Below, one piece after another: positions 2,678 through 14,704 of a stretch of 24,143 nt of DNA (its first letter is position 1; each line of letters opens with the position of its first letter). The notes beneath the pieces are model-generated. The model did no database searches. It was not told the DNA's origin and saw nothing but the letters and a program-made list of their open reading frames with translations. Source of the stretch: a virus; the IMG/VR virus record IMGVR_UViG_3300042889_001072, positions 1 through 24,143 of that record; one strand, given 5' to 3'. Made by a program: the position numbers and the translations under genes.

Positions 2678-3091
2678 TCAAACTTCCTCTGACCTTCCGT
2701 TCCCGTTGTTCCCGTTGCCGCCATTGTTGCCATTGTCGCCATTGTTCCAATTATTCCCATCAGAGCCATTATTCCCGTTGTTTCCGTTGTCGCCTTTGTC
2801 ACCTTTAGGACCATCTTTGCCATCAGCCCCATCAGCTCCATCAGCTCCGTCTTTGCCATCGGAACCATTTCTTCCATCTCTTCCATCTCTACCATCTCTA
2901 CCGTCAGACCCATCTTTTCCATCTTTACCATCTTTACCAGCCTGACCAGGAGGTCCGGATGGTCCAGAAGGTCCAGAAGGTCCAGGTAGTCCGCAGCAGC
3001 ACTGTTTCTGTCCATCATCGTCATCATCATTATCTTGTAAAATCACTAATCCTGATTGTATGCCAGATTGAACATTAGTTAAATCGGACAT
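2678..3091 (-). CDS. Collagen-like Gly-X-Y repeat protein
   Basis: A 137-residue protein. Residues 1-25 form a leader with a run of five Asp, then a CCCG cluster. About 33 Gly-X-Y triplets follow (GPSGPSGPP, then GKDGKDG, GRDGRDG, GADGADG, then GNNGNNG). Collagen-like triple helices in phages are usually fibre or spike components, and the Asp/Lys/Arg-rich triplets suit salt-bridge stabilisation without hydroxyproline. One Gly is replaced by Trp in the last third (GNN WNN GDN). The ATG lies six bases after the TGA of the Ala-rich gene and in the same frame. It probably encodes an exposed virion fibre. Confidence 0.85.
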   Translation of the reverse strand: MSDLTNVQSGIQSGLVILQDNDDDDDGQKQCCCGLPGPSGPSGPSGPPGQAGKDGKDGKDGSDGRDGRDGRDGRNGSDGKDGADGADGADGKDGPKGDKGDNGNNGNNGSDGNNWNNGDNGNNGGNGNNGNGRSEEV

Positions 3092-4859: not shown

Positions 4860-5261
4860 TCAATTATATGTATATATGCCACACTTCTCTAGGAAATCAA
4901 CACCTGAATGGTCACGGTATTTGTGTTTGTAAAATACTTGGATTATGCCTGCACCATATATCAACTTAGCACAATCAATACACGGAGCGTGGGTAAGAAA
5001 CATAGTTGCTCCATTACCTGATTCATTACTACTAGCCAACTTCATAATTGAATTTGCTTCTGCGTGTATTACTTCAGGTTTGGTTTTATTATTATCATCT
5101 TCACAATTATTATCCCACAATGCAGGTGTGCCATTCCAAGAAAATGATATCACATTATTATTCTTAACAATGACTGCCCCAACTTGTAACCTTTTCGCTC
5201 TTGACATTTTAGCGCACTCTGACGCCAAGTTCATATAGAAATCTATCATTCTGTTATTCAT
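4860..5261 (-). CDS. dCMP deaminase
   Basis: Deoxycytidylate deaminase converts dCMP to dUMP, the substrate of thymidylate synthase. Zinc-site motifs are intact: HAE at residues 67-69 and PCIDC at 93-97 (numbering from the ATG at 5261). MSRAKRLQVGAVIVKNNNVI is the typical family N-terminal segment. With 133 residues it is a compact version. An alternative ATG at 5282 adds seven residues but has no Shine-Dalgarno sequence; the ATG at 5261 has GAGGA only at a long distance (about 14 bases). The start overlaps the end of homing endonuclease A, so its translation signals may have been rebuilt by that insertion. Confidence 0.9.
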   Translation of the reverse strand: MNNRMIDFYMNLASECAKMSRAKRLQVGAVIVKNNNVISFSWNGTPALWDNNCEDDNNKTKPEVIHAEANSIMKLASSNESGNGATMFLTHAPCIDCAKLIYGAGIIQVFYKHKYRDHSGVDFLEKCGIYTYN

Positions 5262-6066
5262 AGTAATGTATTTTATCCTCATTTATATTGTTTAACGCCT
5301 TGTTTATATTATCCTCACCTTCGTAAAATAACCACCCTACATTTTTTCCGTTTTTGGGAGATATACCCTTATTGACATAATTAATAAATCCTGGTCCTTC
5401 AGATAATCCTAACTCATGTAATCTTTCGTTACGTTTACCTAATGTATAATAACACTCACCTGTAGGCGATAGAAATAACCAATATTTTTGTCCATAAGAA
5501 TTCTTGTTTAATCTTAAAGACTCTGCTCTTTTTTGTATAGTTAAATCGCTTTGTTTTTTACCTAAATTAGCATCTCGTAACTTTTCTCTAGTTTCGGCAG
5601 TTACTTCATGCCCTAGTTTACTTTTAGATAATTTATTCCGCATTGTAACGCTTCGCATTTTACCTTTCCAATTAGGAGGAATTGATTTAGGTATTTCGCC
5701 AAGTTCTAATCTTCTTTTCTTTGTATCTTTCATTTTTTGTATAGATTCTGGAGTATCACAAAATCTGGTTCCTCCATTATGTTTGTTTAACCATTCAGGA
5801 TGTTTTGCGGCATCTATTCTAGTCAAAAATCTGGTTTCCCAATATAATGCTTCTATTTTAGATATAAATGTTTTTCGAATTTGGACTGAAAAGGAATCTA
5901 TACCATATTCTTCTATAAGATCGGATATTGTTTTGGAGGAAGTAAAATAGGTTGTCCAAAGTTGATCTGGATGGGCTACTTCTTTTTCGGTATATCTAAC
6001 GCCATAATATCTTTGTCCTGTTGGGATAAAGGTAATACAATAGGCAAAAGGTATATAAATATTCAT
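5254..6066 (-). CDS. GIY-YIG homing endonuclease A
   Basis: A free-standing homing endonuclease of 270 residues. The N-terminal GIY-YIG nuclease domain is recognisable (YCITFIPTGQRYYGVRY, residues 9-25), with a helical continuation to about residue 90. Residues about 130-180 carry NUMOD3-type DNA-binding repeats (GKMRSVTMRNKLSKSKLG, then REKLRDANLGKKQ). The C-terminus is a further DNA-binding module. Such enzymes cut unoccupied alleles and spread their own gene by recombination. It overlaps the dCMP deaminase start and is preceded by a late-type promoter and a structured leader resembling that of endonuclease B. Confidence 0.88.
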   Translation of the reverse strand: MNIYIPFAYCITFIPTGQRYYGVRYTEKEVAHPDQLWTTYFTSSKTISDLIEEYGIDSFSVQIRKTFISKIEALYWETRFLTRIDAAKHPEWLNKHNGGTRFCDTPESIQKMKDTKKRRLELGEIPKSIPPNWKGKMRSVTMRNKLSKSKLGHEVTAETREKLRDANLGKKQSDLTIQKRAESLRLNKNSYGQKYWLFLSPTGECYYTLGKRNERLHELGLSEGPGFINYVNKGISPKNGKNVGWLFYEGEDNINKALNNINEDKIHYYE

Positions 6067-11376: not shown

Positions 11377-11404
11377 TTAACTCAACAAAAAGGAATACTA
11401 AAAT
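11377..11404 (+). repeat. Repeated leader of LPW paralogues, copy 1
   Basis: The leader before paralogue 1 (AACAAAAAGGAATACTAAAA plus about ten bases upstream) matches the leader of paralogue 2 at 11763-11789 with about three differences. It includes AAGGA as the Shine-Dalgarno sequence. It shows that the unit of duplication included the translation start region. Confidence 0.7.
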
Positions 11405-11750
11405 GACAATAACATATACTTGGACTATTACTGGTCTTGAATGTGCAGATCCTGATAGCGATGTTGATTGTGATACAATTAAAGAAGCTACTTGGACTTT
11501 AACTGGAAACGATGGTACTAACACAAGCTCTATTACTGGAAAAACTTCATTAAATATAGTTATGAGCCCAGAAGAAGGGCAAACCCATTCAGATGTGTTT
11601 GCTCTAGTAACTGAAGCAGAAATTATAACCGCAGTACAGACTGTAATGGGCACAGAAAATATTAGTAATATGGAAACAAATATCGCTAATAAACTTACTG
11701 AACTTACTTTACCAGCTTATGTTATCCAAACACTCCCTTGGGTAGTATAA
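11403..11750 (+). CDS. LPW-tail paralogue 1
   Basis: A 115-residue protein. It begins MTITYTWTITGLEC and ends TLPWVV. The order is: an N-terminal strand with Tyr-Thr-Trp, a second strand (EATWTLTGNDG), an insertion strand, then an ALVTEAEIITAVQTVMG helix and a Pro-Trp tail. Marine T4-like phages carry related proteins (which I recall as DUF7936) with the same TYTW start and LPW end; their function is unknown. It is the first of three tandem copies, opposite in strand to all neighbours except endonuclease B. Confidence 0.75.
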   Translation: MTITYTWTITGLECADPDSDVDCDTIKEATWTLTGNDGTNTSSITGKTSLNIVMSPEEGQTHSDVFALVTEAEIITAVQTVMGTENISNMETNIANKLTELTLPAYVIQTLPWVV

Positions 11751-11753
11751 ATC
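11746..11753 (+). promoter_or_regulatory. Late-promoter-like TATAAATC overlapping a stop codon
   Basis: TATAAATC begins inside the final Val codons of paralogue 1 and contains its TAA. It lies 42 bases before the ATG of paralogue 2. One base differs from the T4 late core. Confidence 0.35.
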
Positions 11754-11787
11754 TCTATATTTTAACTTAACAAAAAGGAACACTAAA

Positions 11788-12147
11788 ATGACAACATATG
11801 TATGGAAAGTAGATTCACTTGAATGTACAGCTAATCCTGGCTTCTCTTGTACTATAATCAAATCAGCACCTTGGACATTAACTGGTGATGATGGAACTAA
11901 TACAACTTTCATTCAAGGTAATGCACCAATAAACATGACCATGGTCGAAGAAGAGGGTCATGCTGAAGGCGATAGATTTGCAGCACTAACTGAAGCTGAA
12001 GTAATAACTGCTATACAAACCCAGTTAGGAACTGCTATAGTAAATGAATTAGTGGCTCATATTGATAATGAACTTTATGTAAAAACTTTACAAACACCAC
12101 CAGAACTACCTAAAATAATAGTACCACCTTTGCCTTGGGTGGTATAA
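11788..12147 (+). CDS. LPW-tail paralogue 2
   Basis: 119 residues, MTTYVWKVDSLEC to LPWVV. Shared segments with copies 1 and 3: WTLTGDDGTNT, ALTEAEVITAIQTQLG and the tail. It has a Pro-rich insertion before the tail (LQTPPELPKIIVPP) that makes it the longest. Two cysteines near the N-terminus are at positions similar to those in the other copies (one additional Cys in the 'FSC' segment). The leader is nearly identical to that of copy 1, so duplication of 1 and 2 was recent or is kept by gene conversion. Confidence 0.75.
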   Translation: MTTYVWKVDSLECTANPGFSCTIIKSAPWTLTGDDGTNTTFIQGNAPINMTMVEEEGHAEGDRFAALTEAEVITAIQTQLGTAIVNELVAHIDNELYVKTLQTPPELPKIIVPPLPWVV

Positions 12148-12150
12148 ATA
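12143..12150 (+). promoter_or_regulatory. T4-type late promoter core overlapping a stop codon
   Basis: An exact TATAAATA that contains the TAA of paralogue 2 and lies 32 bases before the ATG of paralogue 3. A start near 12156 would give a leader of about 25 bases with AAGGA. Confidence 0.5.
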
Positions 12151-12181
12151 TACATATTAATATAATATAAGGAATAAACTA

Positions 12182-12529
12182 ATGGCAATAACATATACTT
12201 GGTTAATAACATCAATTGAATGCAACACACCTGATGCTGATGCAGACTGTGATATAATTACATCTGCAAGTTGGAGATTGATTGGAACTGATGGTGATTA
12301 TAGTAGTTTTTCTTTTGGAACTTCTCCATTAAATATAGTTCTAGAAGTAACTCCTGGAACTCTAGAATTAGAAGCATATAATGCTTTAACAGAAGCTGAA
12401 ATGATAACTGCTGTTCAAACTGCTTTAGGTGAAGAACAAATAACATCACTGGAAGCAGAAATAGCTGAACGAATCCAACAACAAGTTGCTCCAACTACTA
12501 TTTCTCCACCTTTACCTTGGGTAGTTTAA
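12182..12529 (+). CDS. LPW-tail paralogue 3
   Basis: 115 residues, MAITYTWLITSIEC to LPWVV. Shared elements are SASWRLIGTDG, ALTEAEMITAVQTALG and the Pro-rich PPLPWVV end. It is the most divergent of the three in the central strands. Its TAA lies directly against the stop of the displaced thyA tail on the other strand, so it marks the left edge of the thyA region. The three-copy cluster may supply a decoration or adaptor protein in variants, which is inference only. Confidence 0.75.
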   Translation: MAITYTWLITSIECNTPDADADCDIITSASWRLIGTDGDYSSFSFGTSPLNIVLEVTPGTLELEAYNALTEAEMITAVQTALGEEQITSLEAEIAERIQQQVAPTTISPPLPWVV

Positions 12530-12703
12530 TTATATTGCAATCGGTGCTTTAATAGTTGGGCGATAATTGTATTTTTGTAAGTCATAAGATCCAATATGGA
12601 AATCATCAATTGAAGGATACTTACGATCAATGACCAATTTGGGCAACTTGTATTCATATAAATCTCTACTTAATAATTCGTTTGCTTGTTCAATATGATT
12701 CTT
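12530..12703 (-). pseudogene. Displaced 3' end of a second thymidylate synthase gene
   Basis: Minus-strand translation from 12703 gives 57 in-frame codons, beginning KNHIEQANELLSRDL, continuing LPKLVIDRKYPSIDDF, and ending IKAPIAI at TAA 12532-12530. This is the canonical C-terminus of thymidylate synthase (E. coli ends IKAPVAI). It matches residues 269-325 of the intact ThyA here, also exactly 57 residues, at about 32 of 57 positions by eye. It has no start codon or N-terminal part, and upstream of codon 1 the sequence turns into a perfect inverted repeat. It is best read as the original thyA tail left behind when endonuclease B and a replacement tail were inserted. Confidence 0.9.
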
Positions 12704-12726
12704 GTATAGATGTTATACAAGAATCA
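12696..12726. repeat. Perfect 13-bp inverted repeat at the thyA-fragment boundary
   Basis: TGATTCTTGTATA pairs perfectly with TATACAAGAATCA across GATGT. One arm includes the Lys-Asn-His codons that begin the thyA remnant; the other lies outside the thyA homology. It could be a bidirectional terminator for the LPW cluster, though there is no U tract, or a scar of break repair at the insertion point. Confidence 0.8.
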
Positions 12727-12747
12727 CATTAGTGAGTTTTCAATTTG

Positions 12748-12793
12748 TATAAATAGTAATAGGCGTTAGTCACGGTGGTCAAGACCTACTAAC
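12748..12793 (+). promoter_or_regulatory. Late promoter plus hairpin leader of endonuclease B
   Basis: TATAAATA (12748-12755) is followed by an outer stem GTTAGT (12765-12770) / ACTAAC (12788-12793), an internal bulge CAC opposite T, an inner stem GGT / ACC and a 7-base loop GGTCAAG. TCTAAT comes directly after the outer stem, as at endonuclease A. The stems differ in sequence but keep pairing between the two loci. Confidence 0.6.
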
Positions 12794-12827
12794 TCTAATC
12801 ATTCTACTATTAATTACAGGAACTAAT

Positions 12828-13724
12828 ATGACCAGCAACATTATATATAATAGTGGTATTTATGCCATAGTAAATAAAAAATCAGGTCGTTCTTATATTG
12901 GATCGTCTATAAATATAGAAAAACGATGGAAATCCCACTTAAGAACCTTAAGAAAAAACACACACCACAATATATTTCTACAAAGAGCATTCAACAAATA
13001 TGGAGAAATTATTTTTGGATTCTCATACCTAGGAATAATGATAACACCAACTCAAGAAGAATTATTTGAGTCAGAACAATCCCACATACATAAATGTCCA
13101 CATAAACTATATAATTTAGGTAGTGTTGGTGGCGGAAATAACCTTACTAATCATCCAAATAAAGATGATATTAGGCAAAGAATCATCAACACCAATCGTA
13201 ATAATAATGCTCAATTATCAACAGAAGAGCTCTCTGAAAAATATGGTCGTTGTGGTTCAGAAAACGGCAATTATAGGGGTGGAATTGGGTTCAATAGTTT
13301 TCATTATTGTTCAATTTGTAATATATCAGTTATATCCGATTCTGCCAAAGTATGCACGAATTGTCGGGACAGAAATGGTGTCAATAATCCTTTCTATGGT
13401 AAAACTCACTCTAAAGAAACTCTTGAAAAATTAAGAATCTCAAATATAGGAAGAACTAAATCTCAATATGAAATAGGTTCTATATCTGGGGAAAATTCTA
13501 GTAAATTTAAAGGGTATTATCATACACCGTGGGGAATATTTCCAGCATCTAATCAAGCAAAATCTGCCCATTCATATATGTCAGTTGTAACTATAACTAG
13601 ATGGTGTGAATATCCAGATAACGATATTGTTAGATTAGGAGCATCAAAATACCTGCAAGAGATAGGTCCTTCTGTTATAGGAAAGACCTATCGTGAACTA
13701 GGATTTTCATTTACTCCAAAATAA
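12828..13724 (+). CDS. GIY-YIG homing endonuclease B (I-TevI-like)
   Basis: A 298-residue homing endonuclease. The GIY-YIG nuclease domain is at the N-terminus (GIYAIVNKKSGRSYIGSSIN, residues 10-29), followed by EKRWKSH with the conserved Arg and His and a later Glu region (ELFESEQ). A zinc-finger-like CSIC...CTNC (Cys161, 164, 176, 179) separates it from a NUMOD3 DNA-binding segment (YGKTHSKETLEKLRISNIG), a layout like phage T4 I-TevI. It lies tail-to-tail with thyA with two bases between the stops, and on its other side is the displaced thyA tail. The likely target is therefore thyA near the YKNH codons. Confidence 0.9.
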   Translation: MTSNIIYNSGIYAIVNKKSGRSYIGSSINIEKRWKSHLRTLRKNTHHNIFLQRAFNKYGEIIFGFSYLGIMITPTQEELFESEQSHIHKCPHKLYNLGSVGGGNNLTNHPNKDDIRQRIINTNRNNNAQLSTEELSEKYGRCGSENGNYRGGIGFNSFHYCSICNISVISDSAKVCTNCRDRNGVNNPFYGKTHSKETLEKLRISNIGRTKSQYEIGSISGENSSKFKGYYHTPWGIFPASNQAKSAHSYMSVVTITRWCEYPDNDIVRLGASKYLQEIGPSVIGKTYRELGFSFTPK

Positions 13725-13726
13725 TA

Positions 13727-14704
13727 TCACACAGATATTGGTGCCTCTATTTTAGGGTGGCTTTTATAATCAACAACATTAAATGATGATAATGTGAAGT
13801 CATCAATACAATGATATTTCTTATCAATTTCTAGTTGACATAATGGATATAAACTTAAATCCCTAGATAACAATTCCTCTGTTTGTTCAATATGGTTTTT
13901 ATAGATATGAGCATCACCAATAGATATGTGTAAATTATCGGGTACCATATCAACAACATTAGCAATCATATGTGTCAATAATGCATATGAAGCGATATTG
14001 AACGGAGTTCCGAGGAAAAAATCCTGAGACCTGACATATAGATGACAACTCAAAGCATATTTCGGAGTTTTCATATCATCCATAATTTTATGAAATTCTT
14101 CTTCATAATATTCTGATGGTTGAATATCTGTTGGGCAATATTTGACTCTTTCAAAAAATGATAACTTTCTTACACCAAACTGAAAGAACGCATGACAAGG
14201 AGCTAATGCCATTCTACTATTCTTTACATTCTGTTGTGGTGATACTCCTTCATCTGGCAAATCAGCAACATTCCAAGCAGATACAATATGTCTACGACTA
14301 AAAGGTCTTTCTATTAATCCTTCAATAAGATTATCTATCTGGTCGGCTTCATCTTCACCCTCAGACCACCATTTTCTCCACTGGTATCCATATATTGGAC
14401 CAAGGTCTCCATCTTCATCAGCCCATTCTTCCCAGATGGTTGGCTTATCATTACCATTCATTCTTCTTAATTCTTCATTATCAGTAGAACCAGATAAGAA
14501 CCAAAGTAACTCATTAGCAACTAATTTGAATGGAGTAAACTTTCCTGACAGTAATGGAAATCCTTTCTTTAGGTCAAACTCAAGATGTTTACCAAATAAT
14601 GATAATGTACCTGTGCCAGTTCTATCATCTGAATCGTTACCATCTATTAGGATTTCTTCTAAAAGTCGGTAATACTGATCCATAGGTCTTTCTATATCGT
14701 TCAA
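13727..14704 (-). CDS. thyA: Thymidylate synthase (intact)
   Basis: Converts dUMP to dTMP with methylene-tetrahydrofolate. 325 residues, longer than the 264 of E. coli because of an insertion at about 180-215. Catalytic Cys170 is in APCHAFFQF; the dUMP-binding region RSQDFFLGTPFNIASY (225-240) keeps Asn236, which favours dUMP over dCMP and argues against a dCMP hydroxymethylase. RTGTG (28-32) and IGDAHIYKNHIEQ (262-274) are intact. The last 57 residues (from Lys269) diverge from the canonical tail, ending IEAPISV with YKSHP in place of the usual YDPHP. That segment may have come with endonuclease B. The ATG overlaps the upstream stop (ATGA). Confidence 0.97.
   Translation of the reverse strand: MNDIERPMDQYYRLLEEILIDGNDSDDRTGTGTLSLFGKHLEFDLKKGFPLLSGKFTPFKLVANELLWFLSGSTDNEELRRMNGNDKPTIWEEWADEDGDLGPIYGYQWRKWWSEGEDEADQIDNLIEGLIERPFSRRHIVSAWNVADLPDEGVSPQQNVKNSRMALAPCHAFFQFGVRKLSFFERVKYCPTDIQPSEYYEEEFHKIMDDMKTPKYALSCHLYVRSQDFFLGTPFNIASYALLTHMIANVVDMVPDNLHISIGDAHIYKNHIEQTEELLSRDLSLYPLCQLEIDKKYHCIDDFTLSSFNVVDYKSHPKIEAPISV

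Follow-up and report, generated by a model that had tools for sequence, protein, structure and literature searches.

The window, by which we mean the whole 24,143-base virus record, carries at its thymidylate synthase locus an intact thyA, then a GIY-YIG endonuclease gene, and then an out-of-place thyA 3' end (Table 1). An open reading frame and Pfam search of the window showed thyA to be complete, with its own stop codon. The endonuclease gene, referred to here as endonuclease B, is apparently complete too and lies on the opposite strand, as the preliminary description of this DNA had stated; it is convergent with thyA, only 2 bp separating the two stop codons.

Table 1. Features of the thyA locus, in window positions
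Feature	Position	Strand	Basis
DUF7936 gene, ancestral right neighbour of thyA	12182..12529	+	Pfam PF25590; L003, L004, L009, L030
Displaced thyA 3' end of native type, 60 codons + stop	12530..12712	-	88% amino acid and 90% DNA identity to L001 tail
Inverted repeat, border of remnant and endonuclease leader	12692..12730		17-nt arms, 94%, 5-nt loop; folds
Endonuclease B (298 aa, GIY-YIG, I-TevI type)	12828..13724	+	Pfam, TIGR01453 and PDB matches
Stretch of 58 bp identical to L008 3262-3319, covering the thyA stop region and the endonuclease B end	13675..13732		Sequence comparison
Hybrid thyA (thymidylate synthase, 325 aa, TTG start)	13727..14704	-	Pfam PF00303 Thymidylat_synt, E 4.9e-92
thyA codons 266-325, working tail of foreign type, L008 nearest	13730..13909	-	80% amino acid identity to L008; AU test
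thyA codons 224-236, I-TevI-type homing site, recoded	13997..14035	-	Island scans; position via CGG4-1 td intron
thyA codons 1-180, part of native type	14165..14704	-	dS to L001 0.39

The displaced fragment matches ThyA residues 266-325 at 33 of 60 positions, a similarity far beyond chance (tblastn E ~5e-15), and it is the sole internal protein-level duplication that we found in the window besides three DUF7936 paralogues. Its recognition as a thyA tail holds good, and it is not a piece of an unrelated gene; but the start originally assigned to it (position 12703, giving 57 residues) is too late, because similarity opens three codons earlier, where the remnant begins with H-L-YKNH at residue H266, directly preceded by an in-frame TAA. 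The stop codon of the remnant adjoins that of a DUF7936 gene. In four relatives, all without the endonuclease (L003, L004, L009 and L030), the stop codon of an intact thyA abuts or overlaps a convergent DUF7936 gene, which is followed by dfr, and the remnant of the window occupies exactly this DUF7936-adjoining position. The dfr gene of the window is of the type present in L001, L003, L006 and L007. Because the remnant stands in the ancestral place of thyA and the dfr gene is of native type, the remnant did not come with the insert; the latter consists of a thyA 3' part of foreign origin and the endonuclease gene. Gene order and similarity together indicate that the remnant is native and in its original place, and that the working tail is foreign. 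The region between thyA and dfr in the window also holds the three DUF7936 paralogues in tandem (11403-12529, plus strand), where relatives have none, one or two.

Relatives for comparison were ten IMG/VR contigs obtained by a ThyA search, together with further ones from a profile search; the phage collection contained no close isolates (all thyA matches less than 60% identical), and the genome contigs searched yielded just one distant thyA. An uninterrupted thyA ending in remnant-type sequence, a relative that the preliminary description had proposed to look for, exists in the IMG/VR contig L001, which has a single thyA and no endonuclease. Over residues 1-265 its ThyA is 88.7% identical to that of the window (84.3% at the DNA level), whereas its tail is only 55.7% identical to the working tail of the window and 88.5% identical (90.2% for DNA) to the remnant, stop codons being counted in both tail comparisons. 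Synonymous divergence from L001 amounts to 0.39 for codons 1-180 of the window and 0.32 for the remnant, and values so similar imply that these two pieces have one history. The genes upstream of thyA are syntenic between the window and L001, and none of the relatives without the endonuclease carries both tails, a combination that had been named beforehand as evidence against a displacement.

Tree comparisons, likewise suggested at the outset, gave the two tails different histories. AU tests on the tail rejected a grouping of the window with L001 (p = 0.001 for protein, 0.009 for DNA) and, for DNA, a grouping of the working tail with the remnant (p = 0.022); in the best tail trees, with modest support, L001 is the partner of the remnant and L008 that of the working tail. 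In trees of the N-terminal part the window groups with L001 (and L002), a grouping with L008 being not firmly excluded (p = 0.07 and 0.17). On its left side the foreign DNA has no sharp limit. Synonymous divergence between the window and L001 rises from 0.39 (codons 1-180) to 1.4 (181-220), reaches saturation (222-239) and is 1.0 at codons 241-265, yet in a block comparison with L002, codons 201-220 and 241-260 of the window look native. From these two patterns we place the border somewhere within codons ~181-266, or else the site discussed below and the tail may be separate patches.

Endonuclease B appears to be an intact GIY-YIG protein of the I-TevI type and is a predicted nuclease. It matches the Pfam family GIY-YIG (PF01541, E 2e-9) and, above the cut-off, NUMOD3, with the I-TevI zinc finger falling below the cut-off; it also exceeds the cut-off of TIGR01453, the NCBIfam subfamily of group I intron endonucleases, and matches PDB chains of both the catalytic and the DNA-binding part of I-TevI (1mk0, 1ln0 and 1i3j, the last at 139-212). 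When it is aligned with five relatives, the catalytic residues G10, I11, Y12, Y23, R33, E83 and N96 are invariant. It has its C-terminal domain (HTPWG..., GKTYRELGF.F.PK) in common with an endonuclease of Sinorhizobium phage phiN3 and not with I-TevI, so that its target could differ. In that phage (L043, 4007-5283) the endonuclease gene lies directly upstream of a short open reading frame of 139 aa with the annotation NAD synthetase; the gene may be a split one. The window itself has a second GIY-YIG gene, of the SegE type (5254-6066, minus strand), overlapping a dCMP deaminase gene (4860-5282) at the start of the latter.

Block comparison showed codons 221-240 of the window to be only 50-70% identical to those of every in-group relative, and an island scan restricted to sites identical in L001 and L002 singled out codons 224-234, with mismatches at 18 of 31 sites as against 33 of 547 elsewhere (0 of 300 shuffles). 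The td gene of phage CGG4-1 has an intron with an I-TevI homologue, and its exon 1 ends in CAACG...TTGGGT; aligned to thyA, the CNNNG cleavage motif corresponds to codons 224-225 and the intron site lies after codon 232, which puts the recoded island on an I-TevI-type homing site. The Gln-Arg pair (C..NG) is kept in all 10 in-group relatives; in the window these codons read GTC AGG, so that the C is lost and with it the CNNNG that I-TevI needs (PMC4065259).

When each of the 11 in-group sequences was scanned against the rest, this site was the best island only in the window (codons 224-233) and in L008 (codons 234-239), the two carriers of endonuclease sequence. Mismatches at codons 224-236 number 5 of 20 in the window and 6 of 21 in L008, and the nine non-carriers have one altogether; the chance of the two carriers being the top two among eleven is 1 in 55. 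The island scan itself is unbiased, but the test is partly post hoc because the region was spotted by eye and then matched to the I-TevI site. The recodings of the window and L008 are unlike each other, and the amino-acid changes are not unique when taken alone, since site conservation among 102 distinct phage ThyA sequences is second lowest in L008 and only tenth lowest in the window. Nor does loss of Q224, and hence of CNNNG, predict an endonuclease: L057, L137 and L167 are without Q224 and have no GIY-YIG open reading frame in the DNA examined. The distance from codon 224 is ~126 bp to the codon where the remnant begins and ~310 bp to the gene for endonuclease B, which fits intronless homing, where cutting takes place away from the endonuclease gene, as a T4 review describes (PMC2988022).

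The second carrier, L008, links the foreign type of tail with the endonuclease. Its tail is 80% identical to the working tail of the window in amino acids (72% in DNA), and its N-terminal part just 76% identical to that of the window; directly after its thyA, in opposite orientation, stand the final ~58 bp of the gene for endonuclease B, whose remainder is gone. That these adjoining 58 bp are identical, whereas the tails agree at only 72% of DNA positions, implies that tail and endonuclease are not strictly one travelling unit. For this unexpected identity the simplest account would be that the endonuclease end was exchanged separately and recently.

Where the remnant meets the endonuclease leader there is an inverted repeat that heads the window's list of such repeats, its arms occupying 12692-12708 and 12714-12730. 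One arm consists of the remnant's own YKNH codons, and 12713-12730 matches the thyA of L001 at 18 of 18 bases in reverse orientation. The repeat may have arisen by fold-back copying while a break was repaired, or it may serve as a regulatory hairpin. A T4-type late promoter, TATAAATA (12748-12755), upstream of the endonuclease gene was considered and dropped, because the window has 7 copies of this sequence where 5.4 are expected, no more than chance.

The explanation that we favour, and regard as quite probable, is a free-standing homing element at a phage thyA, intronless and with an I-TevI-like GIY-YIG endonuclease, that replaces the 3' end of its target and displaces the old one. In a mixed infection, an I-TevI-like endonuclease would cut the other phage's thyA at the conserved codons for dUMP binding (224-236), and break repair on the donor would copy a recoded, resistant thyA 3' region along with the endonuclease gene; the recoded I-TevI-type site of both carriers may thus protect the hybrid allele from cutting. 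What leads us to this explanation is that L001 resembles the remnant, not the working tail, at its thyA 3' end and the window in its N-terminal part, that the remnant and codons 1-180 are equally diverged from L001 and AU tests reject the tail grouping of the window with L001, that the remnant adjoins DUF7936 in the ancestral manner next to a dfr of the L001 type, that the endonuclease is I-TevI-like with conserved catalytic residues, that L008 combines a related tail with the end of the same endonuclease gene, and that the I-TevI-type site is recoded in both carriers and in 0 of 9 non-carriers. The same architecture and model are, moreover, known from the WHO elements of yeasts (part proven, PMC7282813) and reported for the mORFs of fungal mitochondria (PMC3630166). 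Counting against it are the single complete copy of the element, the unequal match of tail and endonuclease end to L008, the reassortment of tail types among relatives without the endonuclease, the difference between the two carriers' recodings, the partly post hoc connection to the I-TevI site, the C-terminal domain unlike that of I-TevI, and the blurred left border of the foreign DNA.

A homing element with a foreign tail had already been proposed in the preliminary description, and this part of the proposal is supported, but the cut had been placed near the YKNH codons, and the I-TevI-type site at codons 224-236, ~126 bp upstream, is the more likely position. Under the older placement the element would be of the same type and the recoding of codons 224-239 unrelated, a lost-intron scar or drift, for example. 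The remnant does start exactly at the H-L-YKNH codons, which encode a conserved His and Tyr of thymidylate synthase, and CAT ATC (H-I) is common to the window and L008 where others have H-L; carriers and non-carriers nevertheless differ little there, and heavy recoding confined to both carriers is found at codons 224-239, making a cut at the YKNH codons rather unlikely. Alternatively, ordinary homologous recombination between phages could have swapped the thyA end, with the endonuclease inserted independently as a passenger. Reassortment of thyA tails and dfr types among relatives without the endonuclease agrees with such exchange, as does the unequal divergence of tail and endonuclease end from L008. 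However, an ordinary exchange replaces the old tail, and here the old tail persists on the far side of the endonuclease gene, next to an unaltered native dfr side; in L008, too, the related tail occurs together with that endonuclease end, and we consider this account unlikely.

Two further explanations fare much worse. The presence of two thyA 3' ends might reflect acquisition of a second whole thyA, the resident gene being deleted except for its tail, and replacement of the whole gene had been the alternative offered in the preliminary description. It is contradicted by the native codons 1-180, which are as diverged from L001 as the remnant is, and by the synteny of the upstream genes with L001; no further remnant of a second thyA was found in the window, and this course of events is very improbable. 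Even less credible is the view that the endonuclease gene lies inside a group I intron, the remnant being its 3' exon. Such introns occur in td of T4-like phages, and endonuclease B falls in a subfamily of group I intron endonucleases, but Rfam, whether by gathering score or by E-value, gave no match at the locus to a group I intron or to any other known RNA, the hybrid open reading frame is uninterrupted and ends with its own stop codon, and an in-frame stop precedes the remnant.

The closest parallels to the homing element proposed here come from fungi. In the WHO elements at FBA1 of Torulaspora and Lachancea yeasts (Coughlan et al. 2020, PMC7282813), as in the window, the endonuclease gene lies downstream of an intact chimeric target and a displaced old 3' fragment lies beyond it, starting slightly downstream of the cut (in the window, of the predicted cut); the 3' part of the target has raised divergence and a conflicting phylogeny, and the endonuclease may oppose the target gene. 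Both components of this organisation are found in the window, namely a target gene with a 3' end of foreign type followed by the endonuclease gene, and beyond it a displaced end close to that of the element-free relative L001. WHO proteins differ in being intein-like LAGLIDADG enzymes with a zinc finger, encoded in eukaryotic nuclear genomes and often clustered, whereas the phage element has a single GIY-YIG gene related to I-TevI and thyA as its target. By analogy, then, the element would work like a WHO or mORF element while standing outside the WHO protein family, membership of which we considered and rejected. In the fungal mitochondrial mORFs (Allomyces atp6; Glomus atp6, atp9, cox2 and nad3; PMC3630166) a foreign C-terminal part is likewise fused in frame and followed by an endonuclease gene and then by the displaced native C-terminal part, and at Glomus atp9 the endonuclease is also of the GIY-YIG type (PMC3630166). 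These elements differ in being mitochondrial and mostly LAGLIDADG, with the endonuclease in the direction of the gene, and not convergent with its target as endonuclease B is. The likeness to Allomyces atp6 that was noted at the outset therefore holds, although it is not uniquely the nearest analogue, the yeast WHO element being equally close.

Among phages, the nearest system is I-TevI in the td intron of T4-like phages (passages of PMC2988022; L168 and L169), where a homologous GIY-YIG endonuclease has the same target gene and where the homing site corresponds to the recoded site of the two carriers. Endonuclease B differs in having no intron, in being encoded downstream of the gene on the opposite strand, and in its other type of C-terminal DNA-binding domain. 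The seg endonucleases of T4 resemble it as free-standing GIY-YIG genes beside a conserved gene, and, as would be expected here, they cut at a distance from the endonuclease gene with co-conversion of the flanks; in the passages of PMC2988022 that deal with them they are described as intergenic, with no displaced target end. Keyword searches of that review and of a recent survey of phage homing endonucleases (PMC10448857) produced no comparable phage case; priority is uncertain, and as far as we have found in these sources the arrangement, known from fungi, is apparently new for phages.

Exchange of thyA 3' ends extends beyond the two carriers. L002 combines an L001-like N-terminal part with a tail like those of L009 and L030, L005 combines an L004-like N-terminal part with an L008-like tail, and many pairwise change-points among the relatives fall at codons 265-295. 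At yeast FBA1 the same signature was attributed to repeated WHO homing (PMC7282813). It is conceivable, though we hold it somewhat doubtful, that phages harbour a WHO-type class of elements, with an intronless I-TevI-type endonuclease and a protective recoded 3' end, and that thyA 3' ends turn over throughout this phage group because such elements home repeatedly and later lose the endonuclease; ordinary recombination explains the reassortment in relatives without the endonuclease just as well. If the homing-element interpretation is true, a fungal homing strategy extends to phages; instead of being removed by splicing or occupying neutral ground between genes, an element of this kind repairs the gene that it enters by giving it a resistant end. 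It would also tie intron homing, by I-TevI at td, to intronless homing at the same gene, and it offers a testable reason why the 3' end of one conserved metabolic gene should reassort.

Other thyA loci with GIY-YIG neighbours (L070, L046 and L054) show no displaced tail; at L070 (3227-5108) a closely I-TevI-like, free-standing endonuclease gene is convergent with a distant thyA and lies just downstream of it. The thyA of L009 (3855-5657) has an in-frame insert of ~275-280 residues after residue ~112, giving an open reading frame of 600 aa, and the insert has no Pfam or Rfam match. Elsewhere in the window, at 2678-3091 on the minus strand, is an open reading frame with collagen-like Gly-X-Y repeats.
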